From Flavobacterium hydrophilum (GTDB lineage: Bacteria > Bacteroidota > Bacteroidia > Flavobacteriales > Flavobacteriaceae), in NCBI RefSeq assembly GCF_003202405.1, contig NZ_QJHL01000001.1, positions 62,001 to 126,000 on the forward strand: a stretch of 64,000 nucleotides of DNA. Reading direction: 5' to 3'. Of the stretch, positions 58,698-63,211 are shown in pieces. The translations under genes were made by a program, and so were the position numbers. Below the pieces are notes generated by a model. It did not search any database, was not told where the DNA came from, and was given only the letters and a program-made list of their open reading frames with translations. Position 1 is the first letter of the stretch, and each line of letters opens with the position of its first letter.

Positions 58698-59975
58698 ATG
58701 AAAAGTAATCCCAATCAAAAGAACTCCTTAAAGCATGTTCTGTTTGGAAGCCTTATTGGCACCACAATTGAATTTTTTGATTTTTATATTTATGCCAATG
58801 CAGCCGTATTGGTTTTTCCTCAATTATTTTTTCCCGGTTCAGATGCTACCATGGCAACTTTAGAATCATTAGCCACTTTTTCAATTGCCTTTTTATCCCG
58901 CCCGTTAGGTTCCGCTTTTTTTGGACATTATGGAGATAAAATTGGTCGAAAATTCACCTTAGTTGCAGCCTTATTAACTATGGGAATCTCGACAGTTACC
59001 ATAGGATTTTTGCCTGGTTATGCCAGTATTGGTGTTGCCGCTCCTTTATTATTGATGCTCTGCCGATTCGGGCAAGGTGTTGGTTTAGGAGGAGAATGGG
59101 GAGGAGCCGTTTTATTGGCCATTGAAAACGCACCACCGCATAAACGTGCCTGGTACGGAATGTTTCCGCAATTGGGAGCGCCAATTGGATTACTGCTTTC
59201 CGGAGGGACTTTTTTAGTATTGACAGATTCAATGAGTAATGAAGATTTCATGAATTATGGCTGGAGAATTCCTTTTATAGCCAGTTCACTTTTGGTTATA
59301 GTTGGTTTTTATATTCGAACTAAAATCTCTGAAACGCCATCTTTTGAAAATTCTAAAAATGCTCATGAAGAAGTAAAAGTTCCGTTTTTAACTTTGGTGA
59401 AATCATATAAAAATCAATTGATTTTTGGAACATTAGGAGCTGTAACAACCTTCCTGGTATTTTATTTAATGACTGTATTTACCCTGAGCTGGGTTACTTC
59501 AGATTTAGGTTATGTAAAGAGAGATGCTTTGCTGATTCAATTGTTTTCGGTATTGTTTTTCGCTCTTTTTATTCCCATTTCAGCTTTGGTTGCCGATAAA
59601 ATTGGCCGTCGTAAAATATTAATTTTCACTACAATTGCTATTGCTGCTTTTGGATTTTTCTTTTCGTTATTCCTTAATTCCGGAAGTCCGTTTTTAGTAA
59701 CGGCTTTTGTTTGTATCGGAATGTCTCTCATGGGCTTTACTTATGGGCCTCTGGGAACATTTTTATCAGAGTTGTTTCCTACCACTGTTCGTTATTCCGG
59801 AGCTTCGTTAACTTTTAATTTGGCTGGAATTCTAGGAGCAGCATTTGCTCCCATGATTGCCATTTGGCTTGCAAGTACATATGGTTTGAATTATGTTGGT
59901 TTTTACCTGACAATTGCAGCTATTATTTCTTTAGTTTCCTTTTTAGTAATTTCTAAAAAAGTACATCAGTTTTAA
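58698..59975 (+). CDS. MFS transporter, metabolite:H+ symporter (MHS) family
   Basis: 425 residues, twelve helices. GSLIGTTIEFFDFYIYANAA (helix 1, with the conserved Glu-x-Phe-Asp), FFGHYGDKIGRKFTLV (loop 2-3 motif), and RFGQGVGLGGEWGGAVLL (helix 4) define the MHS group with ProP, ShiA and KgtP. It imports a metabolite or osmolyte with protons; the substrate is not readable. Start at the ATG since a TTG upstream lies in the promoter box. Followed by a strong terminator. Confidence 0.9.
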   Translation: MKSNPNQKNSLKHVLFGSLIGTTIEFFDFYIYANAAVLVFPQLFFPGSDATMATLESLATFSIAFLSRPLGSAFFGHYGDKIGRKFTLVAALLTMGISTVTIGFLPGYASIGVAAPLLLMLCRFGQGVGLGGEWGGAVLLAIENAPPHKRAWYGMFPQLGAPIGLLLSGGTFLVLTDSMSNEDFMNYGWRIPFIASSLLVIVGFYIRTKISETPSFENSKNAHEEVKVPFLTLVKSYKNQLIFGTLGAVTTFLVFYLMTVFTLSWVTSDLGYVKRDALLIQLFSVLFFALFIPISALVADKIGRRKILIFTTIAIAAFGFFFSLFLNSGSPFLVTAFVCIGMSLMGFTYGPLGTFLSELFPTTVRYSGASLTFNLAGILGAAFAPMIAIWLASTYGLNYVGFYLTIAAIISLVSFLVISKKVHQF

Positions 59976-59999
59976 TATTCCTAAAAACTAATTTATAGG

Positions 60000-60033
60000 G
60001 AGGTAACGAGTCATTCGTTACCTCTTTTTTTTT
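60000..60033 (+). terminator. Terminator of the MHS transporter gene
   Basis: GAGGTAACGA (60000-60009) pairs with TCGTTACCTC (60015-60024), loop GTCAT, then nine Ts. Confidence 0.9.
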
Positions 60034-60146
60034 GGAAAAATCTTAAAATAGTTGATTAATTTATGTTTCTTGAAATTTTATTTATGTATTAAGTGTTTGT
60101 ATTTTAATACTTTGAAAATATTTTTAAGAAAATTTTGTGATTTGAT

Positions 60147-60178
60147 TTGTTTATTAAAAAAATAATTCACAAAATTTG
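60147..60178 (+). promoter_or_regulatory. Candidate promoter of the rtcB leader
   Basis: TTG (60147-60149), 21 bp, then AAAATTTG (60171-60178), a one-mismatch form of TAnnTTTG. Transcription would begin near 60185, shortly before the structured leader. Confidence 0.4.
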
Positions 60179-60218
60179 CATCAGAAAATAAGTAATTAAC
60201 TATTAATAAACGAAGACA

Positions 60219-60305
60219 ATGTTTGTATTAAACCTTACCTCTCAAAACATCGCATCAGGATCAGATTCTGTTGGCATGTGTCTTCGTGGCTTTTCTCAAT
60301 CATAG
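60219..60305 (+). CDS. Putative 28-residue leader peptide
   Basis: Open frame from ATG 60219 to TAG 60305. The peptide starts MFVLNLTSQNIASG and ends MCLRGFSQS, with five to six serines and no run of a single amino acid, so it does not look like a classical amino-acid attenuator peptide. Its start codon lies inside the predicted leader stem, so translation and folding would compete. Whether it is translated is unknown. A second tiny frame, seven codons from 60323, runs through the terminator stem. Confidence 0.35.
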   Translation: MFVLNLTSQNIASGSDSVGMCLRGFSQS

Positions 60306-60329
60306 CAAATCAATTTAGAGATATGAATA

Positions 60330-60362
60330 AGCCCGAAGGAAAATAACTTTCGGGCTTTTTTT
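60330..60362 (+). terminator. Intrinsic terminator inside the rtcB leader
   Basis: AGCCCGAA (60330-60337) pairs with TTTCGGGCT (60348-60356), followed by seven Ts. It lies 206 bp before rtcB, so it must be bypassed, or rtcB has a second promoter. Confidence 0.8.
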
Positions 60363-60568
60363 ATTCTAGACACTTCAAAAATTCCCGAATATCAGAACTG
60401 AATTTATCTGTTTCAGATAAAATGTTTATCAAAATCTATTTGCTCAGATTTTGCTTGATGTTTTGCGCGTATTCTTATGCCTTAAATGTTTTAAGATAAA
60501 GCATTTCATTTTGCGAAAAAGAAACAGACAATATTGATTTTGAAAGAATTTCAATAGTAAAAAAACAA
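60363..60568 (+). other. Spacer between leader terminator and rtcB
   Basis: No convincing gene. A 7-bp hairpin TTATCTG/CAGATAA lies at 60404-60420, followed at once by a 25-codon frame (ATG 60422) with hydrophobic content that I regard as chance. No full TAnnTTTG box was found. Confidence 0.4.
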
Positions 60569-61960
60569 ATGGGAAATAAATTATCCGGAAAAGACCTGAT
60601 TAAAATAGGCTTTCCAAAAAATAATAGTATCAATATTGCCTTGGGGCAAATCAACCGATACAGAAAAAGAGAAAAAAAAGAAAGTATATTAACCGAAGCC
60701 AAAGAAGTTTTACTGTTTCCGGAAAAATTTACCGGACACGGAACCTGGGGAAAAGTTGCCGAAGGATTGGTAAATCCGGTACAAGTGAGAATGCATCAGC
60801 TTAACAATACAAGAGCGCCTTTCTCAATTTTCGGAGAAAATGAAATTGATGAACAGGCGAAATATCAATTGTATGATGCCTTAAAATTACCAGTTTCAGT
60901 AGCAGGAGCTTTAATGCCCGATGCGCATTCAGGCTACGGACTGCCAATTGGCGGAGTTTTGGCAACAGATAATGCCGTGATTCCGTATGGAGTTGGAGTA
61001 GATATCGGCTGTAGAATGAGTTTGTCAATTTTTGATATTCCGGCTTCTTTCTTTAAAGGAAAGGAACATCAGCTGGAAGCTATTTTAAAAGACAATACCA
61101 AGTTTGGAATGTATGAAACCCACACCATTCGGGCAGATCACGAAGTGTTTAGCCGAAGTGAATTTCAGGATATTCCGCTTTTGAAAAACCTTTTAAATAA
61201 AGCATATAAGCAATTGGGAACATCTGGAGGAGGAAATCACTTTGTTGAATTCGGAATTGCAAAAATTACTAATCCGCTCAACGAATGGAAGATTGGAGTT
61301 GGGGAATATTTTGCACTGCTTTCGCATAGCGGCTCCCGGGGATTGGGTGCTAATATAGCAAAACATTACACCTATCTGGCAACTAAACAATGTCCGTTGC
61401 CTAAAAATGTGCAGCATCTGGCATGGCTCGATCTCAATACGCATGACGGTCAGGAATACTGGCTGGCTATGAATTTAGCAGGTGATTATGCAAAAGCCTG
61501 TCATGATGATATTCACCGCCGAATTGCAAAAGCGATTGGTAAACGTGTTGTTGTAACCATTGAAAACCATCACAATTTTGCATGGAAAGAAATCGTAAAT
61601 GGCAAAGAAGCTATTGTACATCGAAAAGGAGCAACTCCTGCAAACGTTGGTGAACTGGGCATTATTCCGGGTTCGATGACTGCTTCGGGATTTATTGTTC
61701 AGGGAAAAGGAAATCCGGAGAGTTTAAATTCAGCTTCTCATGGTGCAGGGCGATTGTTTTCTCGTAAAAAATGCAAGGAATCATTTACCCAAAGCGAGAT
61801 TAAAAAAGTCCTGAAAGCAAATGATGTGACTTTAATTGGAGGTAATATAGATGAAGCGCCAATGGCGTATAAAGACATTAATAAAGTAATGGCTAACCAA
61901 ACGGAACTGGTGGATGTGTTAGGAACATTTACACCAAAAATCGTTAGAATGGACAGATAA
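60569..61960 (+). CDS. rtcB: RNA ligase RtcB (PrfH-associated)
   Basis: 463 residues. Joins RNA ends with 2',3'-cyclic phosphate or 3'-phosphate to 5'-OH, using GTP and manganese through an RtcB-guanylate intermediate. Ligands: Asp145 and Cys148 (GVGVDIGCRM), His224 (GGGNHFVEFG), His253 (LSHSGSRG), His334/335 (IENHHNF). His391 in NSASHGAGR is the guanylated residue, and GKGNPESLNSASHG is a family signature. The ATG at 60569 is the only start; a stop lies at 60497. It begins the rtcB-prfH operon; in this pairing RtcB repairs 16S rRNA cut in the decoding centre. Confidence 0.96.
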   Translation: MGNKLSGKDLIKIGFPKNNSINIALGQINRYRKREKKESILTEAKEVLLFPEKFTGHGTWGKVAEGLVNPVQVRMHQLNNTRAPFSIFGENEIDEQAKYQLYDALKLPVSVAGALMPDAHSGYGLPIGGVLATDNAVIPYGVGVDIGCRMSLSIFDIPASFFKGKEHQLEAILKDNTKFGMYETHTIRADHEVFSRSEFQDIPLLKNLLNKAYKQLGTSGGGNHFVEFGIAKITNPLNEWKIGVGEYFALLSHSGSRGLGANIAKHYTYLATKQCPLPKNVQHLAWLDLNTHDGQEYWLAMNLAGDYAKACHDDIHRRIAKAIGKRVVVTIENHHNFAWKEIVNGKEAIVHRKGATPANVGELGIIPGSMTASGFIVQGKGNPESLNSASHGAGRLFSRKKCKESFTQSEIKKVLKANDVTLIGGNIDEAPMAYKDINKVMANQTELVDVLGTFTPKIVRMDR

Positions 61961-61963
61961 ATT

Positions 61964-62653
61964 ATGGAAAAAATAATTCAAATAACATCAGGGCGCGGCC
62001 CGGCTGAATGCAGCTGGGTTGTGGCTCAGGTGCTGAAAACTTTTCTGGAAGAAGCAAATGACAATAAAATAAAAACAACTTTGCTTCAGCGGGAAAAAGG
62101 AATCGAAAACGGAACGGTAGAAACGGCAACAATTTTACTCGAAAGTGATAATCTAAATGAATTTGTAAACTCATGGAAAGGAACCATTCAGTGGATTGGG
62201 CAGAGTCAGTTTAGAAAATTTCACAAACGTAAAAACTGGTTTATCGGAATTTTTGAAGTTGATAAAGAAACAACGACCGAAATTGGAGAAAAAGATATTC
62301 AGTATCAGGCGATGCGCAGTTCCGGTGCCGGCGGACAACATGTAAACAAAGTAAGTTCGGCAGTACGGGCGACTCATGTTCCAACAGGAATTAGCGTAGT
62401 GGCTATGGATTTTCGATCTCAGCATCAGAATAAAAAACTGGCAACCGAAAGATTGCTTCAGAAGTTTAAGGACGAAACGGTAAAACAATTCAAAGCCGAA
62501 TTTCAGGCACAGTGGATGAACCAATTGCAGATTCAGCGTGGGAATCCGATTCGGATTTTTGAGGGTTCAGATTTTAAGAAACAAAAACAAGTTAAAAATT
62601 ACAAACAGGAACGGCAACGATTAAAACGGGAAGATTATTTCGACCGGGATTAA
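61964..62653 (+). CDS. prfH: Peptide chain release factor homologue PrfH
   Basis: 229 residues. The GGQ motif is SSGAGGQHVNKVSSAVR (Gly123-Gln125), followed by the release-factor domain to RLLQKFKDETVKQFKAEFQ and a basic tail. It has no RF1/RF2-type stop-codon domain 2 motifs (PxT or SPF), which marks PrfH. PrfH releases nascent peptides from ribosomes whose 16S rRNA was cleaved in the decoding centre (for example by colicin E3-type nucleases). The start lies 4 bp after the rtcB stop, so the genes are co-translated. Confidence 0.93.
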   Translation: MEKIIQITSGRGPAECSWVVAQVLKTFLEEANDNKIKTTLLQREKGIENGTVETATILLESDNLNEFVNSWKGTIQWIGQSQFRKFHKRKNWFIGIFEVDKETTTEIGEKDIQYQAMRSSGAGGQHVNKVSSAVRATHVPTGISVVAMDFRSQHQNKKLATERLLQKFKDETVKQFKAEFQAQWMNQLQIQRGNPIRIFEGSDFKKQKQVKNYKQERQRLKREDYFDRD

Positions 62654-62686: not shown

Positions 62687-63211
62687 ATGAAAACAGTAGA
62701 TAAATATCTTTTTCAGGCATTAGACAATTATCCATATTGGTTGGAAGGAACCATCGAATCTTTGGATTACGCCTTATCTTACGATGATAAAAATACTATG
62801 GCCTTGTGTTTATACGGTCAGGTTTTCTCAGATCAGTTATTGAAATATGAAGAGGCAAAAGAATATTTTCAAAAAGCACTTTCGATTAATATTTATGCTT
62901 TAGAGGTGTATCCTTTTTATATTCATACTTTAATTTTAAATGAAGATTATGAAGAAGCAATGAAACTGATTGATTTTGCATTGACTGTCAAGGGAATCAA
63001 TAAAACAGAAATTCTTTTGAAGAGAATCATACTTTTAGAACGTCAGCAGGAATTTAAAAAAGCATTGAAAGTGATTAAAAAGGTAAAACTTACCACAATC
63101 AATACTTGTTATGATTATGCGATTGAAGAATCTGAAAAAAGGCTGAATAAAAAATTGAATGGTGATTCTAAAAAGGATAAGTCGGCCAAGAAGAAAAAGA
63201 AGAATAAGTAA
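62687..63211 (+). CDS. TPR-like helical protein linked to rtcB-prfH
   Basis: 174 residues from the ATG at 62687, preferred over a TTG at 62663. Helical repeats of TPR type are visible: TIESLDYALSYDDKNTMALC, YEEAKEYFQKALSINIYALE, and YEEAMKLIDFALTVKG. The C-terminus is a Lys-rich tail (KKDKSAKKKKKNK) suited to RNA or ribosome binding. It starts 33 bp after prfH and ends with its own terminator, so it belongs to the operon. No function is known to me; a scaffold or ribosome-recruiting role is inference. Confidence 0.8.
   Translation: MKTVDKYLFQALDNYPYWLEGTIESLDYALSYDDKNTMALCLYGQVFSDQLLKYEEAKEYFQKALSINIYALEVYPFYIHTLILNEDYEEAMKLIDFALTVKGINKTEILLKRIILLERQQEFKKALKVIKKVKLTTINTCYDYAIEESEKRLNKKLNGDSKKDKSAKKKKKNK

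Follow-up and report, generated by a model that had tools for sequence, protein, structure and literature searches.

The rtcB-prfH operon of Flavobacterium hydrophilum is, in our judgement, very probably controlled by a translation-dependent transcription attenuator that turns the operon on when a ribosome stalls early in a short leader frame. The DNA analysed was a stretch of 64,000 nucleotides (the window) from a host genome of 5.57 Mb, and the features of the locus are listed in Table 1. All of them lie on the forward strand, in the order promoter-like pair, leader frame, intrinsic terminator, rtcB and prfH. The presence of rtcB directly followed by a prfH of the TIGR03072 family identifies the locus as an RtcB-PrfH rescue and repair operon.

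Table 1 The candidate attenuator and the genes behind it, in window coordinates.
Feature	Position	Strand	Remarks
Promoter-like pair	60146..60178	+	TTTG 60146-60149, 21-nt spacer, AAAATTTG 60171-60178
Segment R1, ACGAAGACA	60210..60218	+	Pairs with R2
Leader frame, 28 codons, MFVLNLTSQNIASGSDSVGMCLRGFSQS	60219..60305	+	Open in all leaders compared
Inner hairpin P2	60247..60279	+	Inside the frame between R1 and R2; stability versus shuffles; possible pause hairpin
Segment R2, CTTCGTGGCTT	60282..60292	+	End of frame; partner R1 or R3, covaries with each
Segment R3, AAGCCCGAAG	60329..60338	+	Terminator 5' arm; antiterminator partner of R2
Segment R4, CTTTCGGGCTT and U-run	60347..60362	+	Intrinsic terminator; terminator scan, R3:R4 covariation
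Segment R5, TTCCCGAA	60382..60389	+	3' of terminator; complementary to R4
Small hairpin, TTATCTGTTTCAGATAA	60405..60421	+	Between leader and rtcB; in several relatives, with other stem letters
rtcB, RNA ligase	60569..61960	+	Controlled gene (predicted); Pfam RtcB, E 1.5e-81
prfH, peptide chain release factor H	61964..62653	+	Controlled gene (predicted); TIGR03072 release_prfH, 235.6 bits (cut-off 166.65)
TPR-like gene	62687..63211	+	Usual third gene of the locus; weak TPR matches; 3' of prfH in most related loci

The original prediction had called for a stem, a 28-codon frame, an intrinsic terminator, a stem competing with the first and an rtcB start 206 nt after the terminator end. All were found where they had been placed, with R2 and R3 forming the competing stem. 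The terminator (60329-60362) reads AAGCCCGAAGG-AAAATAA-CTTTCGGGCTT-TTTTTA. A terminator scan of 59900-60700 found two terminator-like sites versus 0.2 expected, and the leader is more stably folded than its shuffles (z -2.6). The promoter-like pair is close to the Bacteroidota -33 TTTG / -7 TAnnTTTG type, and a TTTG/-7 pair, 20-21 nt apart, is found 5' of the frame in 82 of 88 Flavobacterium leaders. When the window was searched, no such pair was present between the terminator and rtcB. Two further elements were observed at the locus. An inverted repeat (TTTTGTGA / TCACAAAA) spans the leader promoter at 60130-60177 in the window and its close relatives only and could be an operator, and the small hairpin in front of rtcB is followed by AAATG, which may mark a second small frame at 60422.

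The leader was found to be tightly linked to the operon, as expected from the proposal that it is a cis leader of rtcB-prfH. By DNA search, the unit from promoter to terminator occurs in about 129 of 399 Flavobacterium genomes, and this conservation is what argues most decisively against a chance arrangement. In a BLAST-based tally, the leader was present in 127 of the 132 genomes with prfH versus 2 of the 267 without it (Fisher p 2e-95); 5 genomes had prfH with no leader found and 265 had neither. Both leader-bearing genomes that lack prfH contain rtcB. On inspection, a leader is present in three of the five genomes scored as leaderless (G195, G241 and G361); G375 has none in the 773 nt upstream of rtcB, where its contig ends, and G301 is the remaining one. 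Whatever lies 5' of the leader, rtcB is the next gene in the same orientation in every Flavobacterium locus that was fetched, and it is directly or indirectly downstream in all Flavobacterium loci checked. Nearly all leaders in the loci that were read precede rtcB, some with one intervening gene, which encodes either a PcfJ-like protein or a 254-aa basic protein that has no Pfam family.

The distribution of the leader outside Flavobacterium was examined with a covariance model. The leader was detected in other genera of Flavobacteriaceae, and a widened model found it in 49 of 216 Flavobacteriales genomes, other families included; Bizionia and Chryseobacterium are among the loci with a leader. 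The model gave no match in the prfH loci of Mucilaginibacter, Chitinophaga, Sphingobacterium, Bacteroidaceae and others (L196, L197 and L208-L218, all outside Flavobacteriales). Since the prfH loci searched outside the order gave no match, the leader appears to be limited to Flavobacteriales. Weak model matches at L116-L119 and L123-L128 were judged from their sequence to be plain terminators, and those at L202, L204 and L205 (40-45 bits) were discarded with no tested operon gene nearby. One scan of genome contigs returned mostly ordinary release factors. In the window and five relatives, nothing on the leader strand reached the gathering score of an Rfam family, and the identification of the leader with a known Rfam element was rejected. 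A match to Flavo-1 RNA (RF01705) at L164:1733-1812 lies downstream of the leader, between it and rtcB, and on the opposite strand. Variation in gene content was also noted at these loci. A basic protein of about 254 aa is encoded before rtcB in many rtcB-prfH operons (L037:2304-3065; L115:1765-2526, in reverse orientation; L197, L210, L214 and L219), including gene orders without a leader. A zinc-ribbon-like protein is fused in frame to PrfH at L034:3881-5023, and elsewhere it is a separate gene between rtcB and prfH.

The pairing of the leader segments was analysed for compensatory change. R2 can pair with R1 or R3 and R3 can pair with R2 or R4, such that the stems are mutually exclusive. In the window, the first stem is formed by ACGAAGACA (60210-60218) and TGTCTTCGT (60279-60287). 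It had been predicted to enclose the start codon. The stem is indeed present in the window, but its ATG/CAT extension is limited to the window's own clade; the conserved R1:R2 stem covers 5-10 nt upstream of the start codon and not the start codon itself. Among 53 distinct leaders, R1:R2 pairs vary as CG/UA/UG, AU/CG and AU/CG/UG/UA. Standard pairs fill 97.6% of the cells of R1:R2 and R3:R4 taken together; two-sided changes number 56, versus 19 in shuffles, and the covariation score is 0.200 versus 0.096 for shuffled and about 0.04 for slid alignments (0/500 shuffles). The alternative stem R2:R3 has standard pairs in 95.1% of cells, with 31 two-sided changes versus 10.6 in shuffles and a score of 0.182 versus 0.108 (0/500 shuffles); two of its columns contain GC:33/AU:16 and CG:33/UA:12/UG:7. 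These shuffles keep shared ancestry, the effect of which is removed by the slid controls, and sliding the partners by 1-3 columns destroyed both signals. For example, R1 TGAAG with R2 CTTCA replaces CGAAG with CTTCG, and R2 GAC, R3 GTC and R4 GGAC replace GGC, GCC and GGGC. Two-sided compensatory changes are thus seen in all three stems, R1:R2, R2:R3 and R3:R4. As R3 covaries with two alternative partners, the pattern is the signature of a switch. Lack of conservation of the stems or the frame in related rtcB-prfH loci had been named as an observation that would speak against the prediction; the opposite was observed, with both conserved. At the level of sequence, these comparisons establish that the leader is linked to rtcB, keeps its frame and has segments that can pair in alternative ways.

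Two additional elements may contribute to the switch. The P2 region is more stable than its shuffles (mean z -1.85; z below -1 in 44 of 53 leaders), and its pairing letters vary by clade. R5 and R4 share a run of at least six Watson-Crick pairs in 33 of 51 leaders (mean 5.9 versus 3.6 in shuffles), and R5 letters track R4 letters across relatives. By pairing with R4, R5 could lock the read-through state.

The leader frame is predicted to be translated. All 88 Flavobacterium leaders keep it open over 26-28 codons, while the other two reading frames contain stops in 61 and 25 of these. In a set of 52 diverse leaders it is open in every one at 24-29 codons, compared with an average of 28% of the time when the middle is shuffled. 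Counted from the first base of the GAA in R1, the frame in this set begins 6-9 nt downstream, and its stop lies 9-16 nt past R2. L106, with a frame of 28 codons, is outside the set since its start overlaps R1 and was excluded by the rule of the script. Indels in the frame come in threes, and even in the two leaders where R2 falls in another reading frame, it is covered by the leader frame. The start codon in the window has A at -3, which is a favourable context in F. johnsoniae (PMC6847099). The synonymous bias that had been suggested as a check was not seen, even though the frame itself is kept: replacement and silent changes are equally common, with pN/pS about 1 (0.41/0.42). It follows that the frame is conserved and the peptide is not. 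Amino acids are not conserved except for the codons overlapping R2, which are held by RNA pairing, and an early Phe codon. A conserved arrest peptide was rejected on the basis of this ratio.

A short frame that is kept, a terminator between this frame and the first gene, and an antiterminator that shares the 5' arm of the terminator are among the marks of an attenuator, and these three are present. We infer that in the cell one stem works as a terminator and another as an antiterminator, and we propose the following mechanism. Transcription would start upstream of the leader. A ribosome that finishes the frame of about 27 codons would cover R2, so that the R3:R4 stem forms and transcription ends at 60362. 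With no ribosome loaded, R1:R2 would form first and leave R3 free for the terminator, and the operon would again be off. A stall within about the first 16 codons would leave R2 free, and a ribosome halted in the first seven codons would mask R1 as well. The free R2 would then capture R3, the terminator would not form, and rtcB-prfH would be transcribed; after read-through, R4 may be locked by R5. The operon would thus be on when translation is initiated and stalled, and off when it is completed or not initiated. The prediction had been that stalled or failed translation would switch the operon on. The covarying antiterminator agrees with the first of these, but failed translation would leave the terminator free if R1:R2 forms first.

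These states were simulated by folding the leaders with a masked ribosome. With the P-site at codons 1-7, the antiterminator formed in 52 of 52 leaders, and it formed in most leaders with the ribosome up to codon 16 and in 0 of 52 with the P-site at codons 19 to 24. A ribosome at the stop codon gave the terminator in 42 of 42. When the RNA ended at R3 and carried no ribosome, the minimum-energy fold was the antiterminator in 50 of 52 leaders; hence the untranslated off state requires that R1:R2 be the earlier stem to form. When R4 was added and the start codon masked, the antiterminator was kept at equilibrium in only 10 of 42 leaders, and the on state is therefore kinetic too.

The physiological signal would plausibly be ribosomes that initiate but are unable to elongate, for example because the decoding centre is damaged or blocked by a drug, and such ribosomes would then be rescued and repaired by the RtcB-PrfH pair. 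A sensor of ribosomes that cannot elongate fits the controlled proteins: in E. coli, RtcB2-PrfH gives protection against colicin E3, by which 16S rRNA is cut (PMC9223846).

The early Phe codon hints at a different signal, one specific to Phe or its tRNA: a shortage, lack of charging or cleavage of Phe-tRNA(Phe) may stall the ribosome at codon 2, 3 or 4, and the RNA ligase would then be turned on by this stall and not by damage to ribosomes. Phe is found within codons 2-4 in 47 of the 52 diverse leaders (window 60219-60230), its position shifting among the three, and at codon 2 or 4 in 86 of the 88 Flavobacterium leaders. It makes up 39% of residues in codons 2-4 of the diverse set versus 5.8% in codons 5-20. 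Loss of Phe at codon 2 goes with its presence at codon 4 (Fisher p 0.002, uncorrected for ancestry), both TTT and TTC are used, and a stall at these codons falls in the region where both masks favour the antiterminator. Amino-acid attenuators, however, usually have runs of control codons, and no such run is present here, where each leader has just one or two early Phe codons and several have none. The controlled genes are without a known tie to phenylalanine, and the early Phe may merely mirror the composition of the start region or slow decoding. We consider a tRNA-specific signal unlikely, though it is a serious competitor of ribosome damage. Alternatively, a particular ribosome-binding drug together with the nascent peptide may halt the ribosome, induction by damage being secondary. 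This would agree with the finding, in a prfH-less genome that is 99% complete (L120/L133), of a leader in front of an AAC(3)-I-like acetyltransferase, and with the response of the PA5471.1 leader of Pseudomonas aeruginosa to ribosome-targeting antibiotics (PMC12057347). On the other hand, the peptide is not conserved, and a nascent-peptide arrest motif is therefore unlikely; we regard drug sensing of this kind as quite unlikely.

Two other explanations would dispense with attenuation altogether. The leader has its own promoter and terminator and would release a short transcript, as would an independent small RNA, about 175 nt long, whose position before rtcB is accidental. Against this, the same-orientation linkage to rtcB is essentially complete while the upstream gene varies, and the R2:R3 pairing and R5 past the terminator would be useless to an independent RNA. 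The small RNA was rejected for its complete linkage to rtcB and seems to us very improbable. There is hardly any chance that the terminator merely ends an upstream transcript and that the stems are fortuitous or DNA-level features. The upstream gene does read toward the leader in the window, but it is already served by a separate terminator at 59997-60027; covariation and a frame kept across families cannot be chance, and the comparative data already contradict such a reading.

The few leaders that precede genes other than rtcB count against the attenuator model. One of them (L133:2000-2786) precedes the AAC(3)-I-like gene, whose match of 87 bits is below the family cut-off of 200. Another genome has two leaders on separate contigs (L131 and L201:5081-5229), of which one precedes the rtcB-prfH operon and the other just a PcfJ-like gene. 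In a genome that lacks prfH, a leader is followed by a TPR gene alone (L203:1501-2251). The AAC(3)-I-like, PcfJ-like and TPR genes are single cases. Since some leaders are found before other genes, we read the leader as a mobile control module, and its placement suggests a portable control for genes that answer ribosome trouble. In its widest form, the proposal is that the leader is a dedicated cis sensor of ribosomes that start but cannot elongate, a Flavobacteriales-wide switch for ribosome rescue and rRNA repair that is reused before other genes responding to ribosome attack (the AAC(3)-I-like acetyltransferase, the PcfJ-like protein and other proteins). We would give this a little less than an even chance. 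If it is true, the AAC(3)-I-like, PcfJ-like and other proteins behind the leader would be flagged as ribosome-defence genes, and a search for the leader rather than for proteins would be a handle for finding such genes. A compact conserved attenuator would also make the sensing of cut ribosomes directly testable in a reporter.

The proposed attenuator shares its four-segment logic (1:2, 2:3 and 3:4) and its short frame with the trp, his and phe leader-peptide attenuators. It differs from them in that segment 1 is at the ribosome binding site and masking therefore begins at initiation, in having a single or double early Phe instead of a run of control codons, in the additional segment R5 past the terminator, and in controlling RNA repair and ribosome rescue rather than biosynthesis. 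Antibiotic-inducible leader peptides such as those of erm often have a conserved arrest peptide and control translation initiation. As in those leaders, a stall in a short frame would alter downstream folding, but the peptide of the present leader can vary freely, and the target of control would be a terminator. RNA repair is likewise turned on under ribosome or tRNA stress by RtcR, which controls rtcBA in E. coli; RtcR is a protein activator that works with sigma-54, whereas an RNA leader would do so here. In the text consulted on F. psychrophilum, leader-peptide attenuation is noted only for amino-acid operons (PMC9723704). A literature search found no published description of the Flavobacteriales rtcB-prfH leader, nor of the means by which RtcB-PrfH is turned on in organisms other than Pseudomonas.

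The closest known system is that of P. aeruginosa, in which the leader peptide PA5471.1 is proposed to attenuate armZ (PA5471, RtcB-like), located beside PA5470/prfH, and responds to ribosome-targeting drugs and impaired translation (PMC12057347, PMC13041342). Given this precedent, the original prediction was too strong in stating that no leader of this kind had been described for this system. The two have in common a short leader frame, termination upon complete translation, read-through when ribosomes stall, and an RtcB-like controlled gene adjoining prfH. Pseudomonas belongs to a different phylum, however, and ArmZ is an anti-repressor of MexZ, whereas rtcB proper and prfH are controlled here. 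The Flavobacteriales leader, whose model had no match in the prfH loci searched outside that order, appears to be a separate and undescribed version, which would show leader-translation control arising for the same gene pair in two distant phyla.
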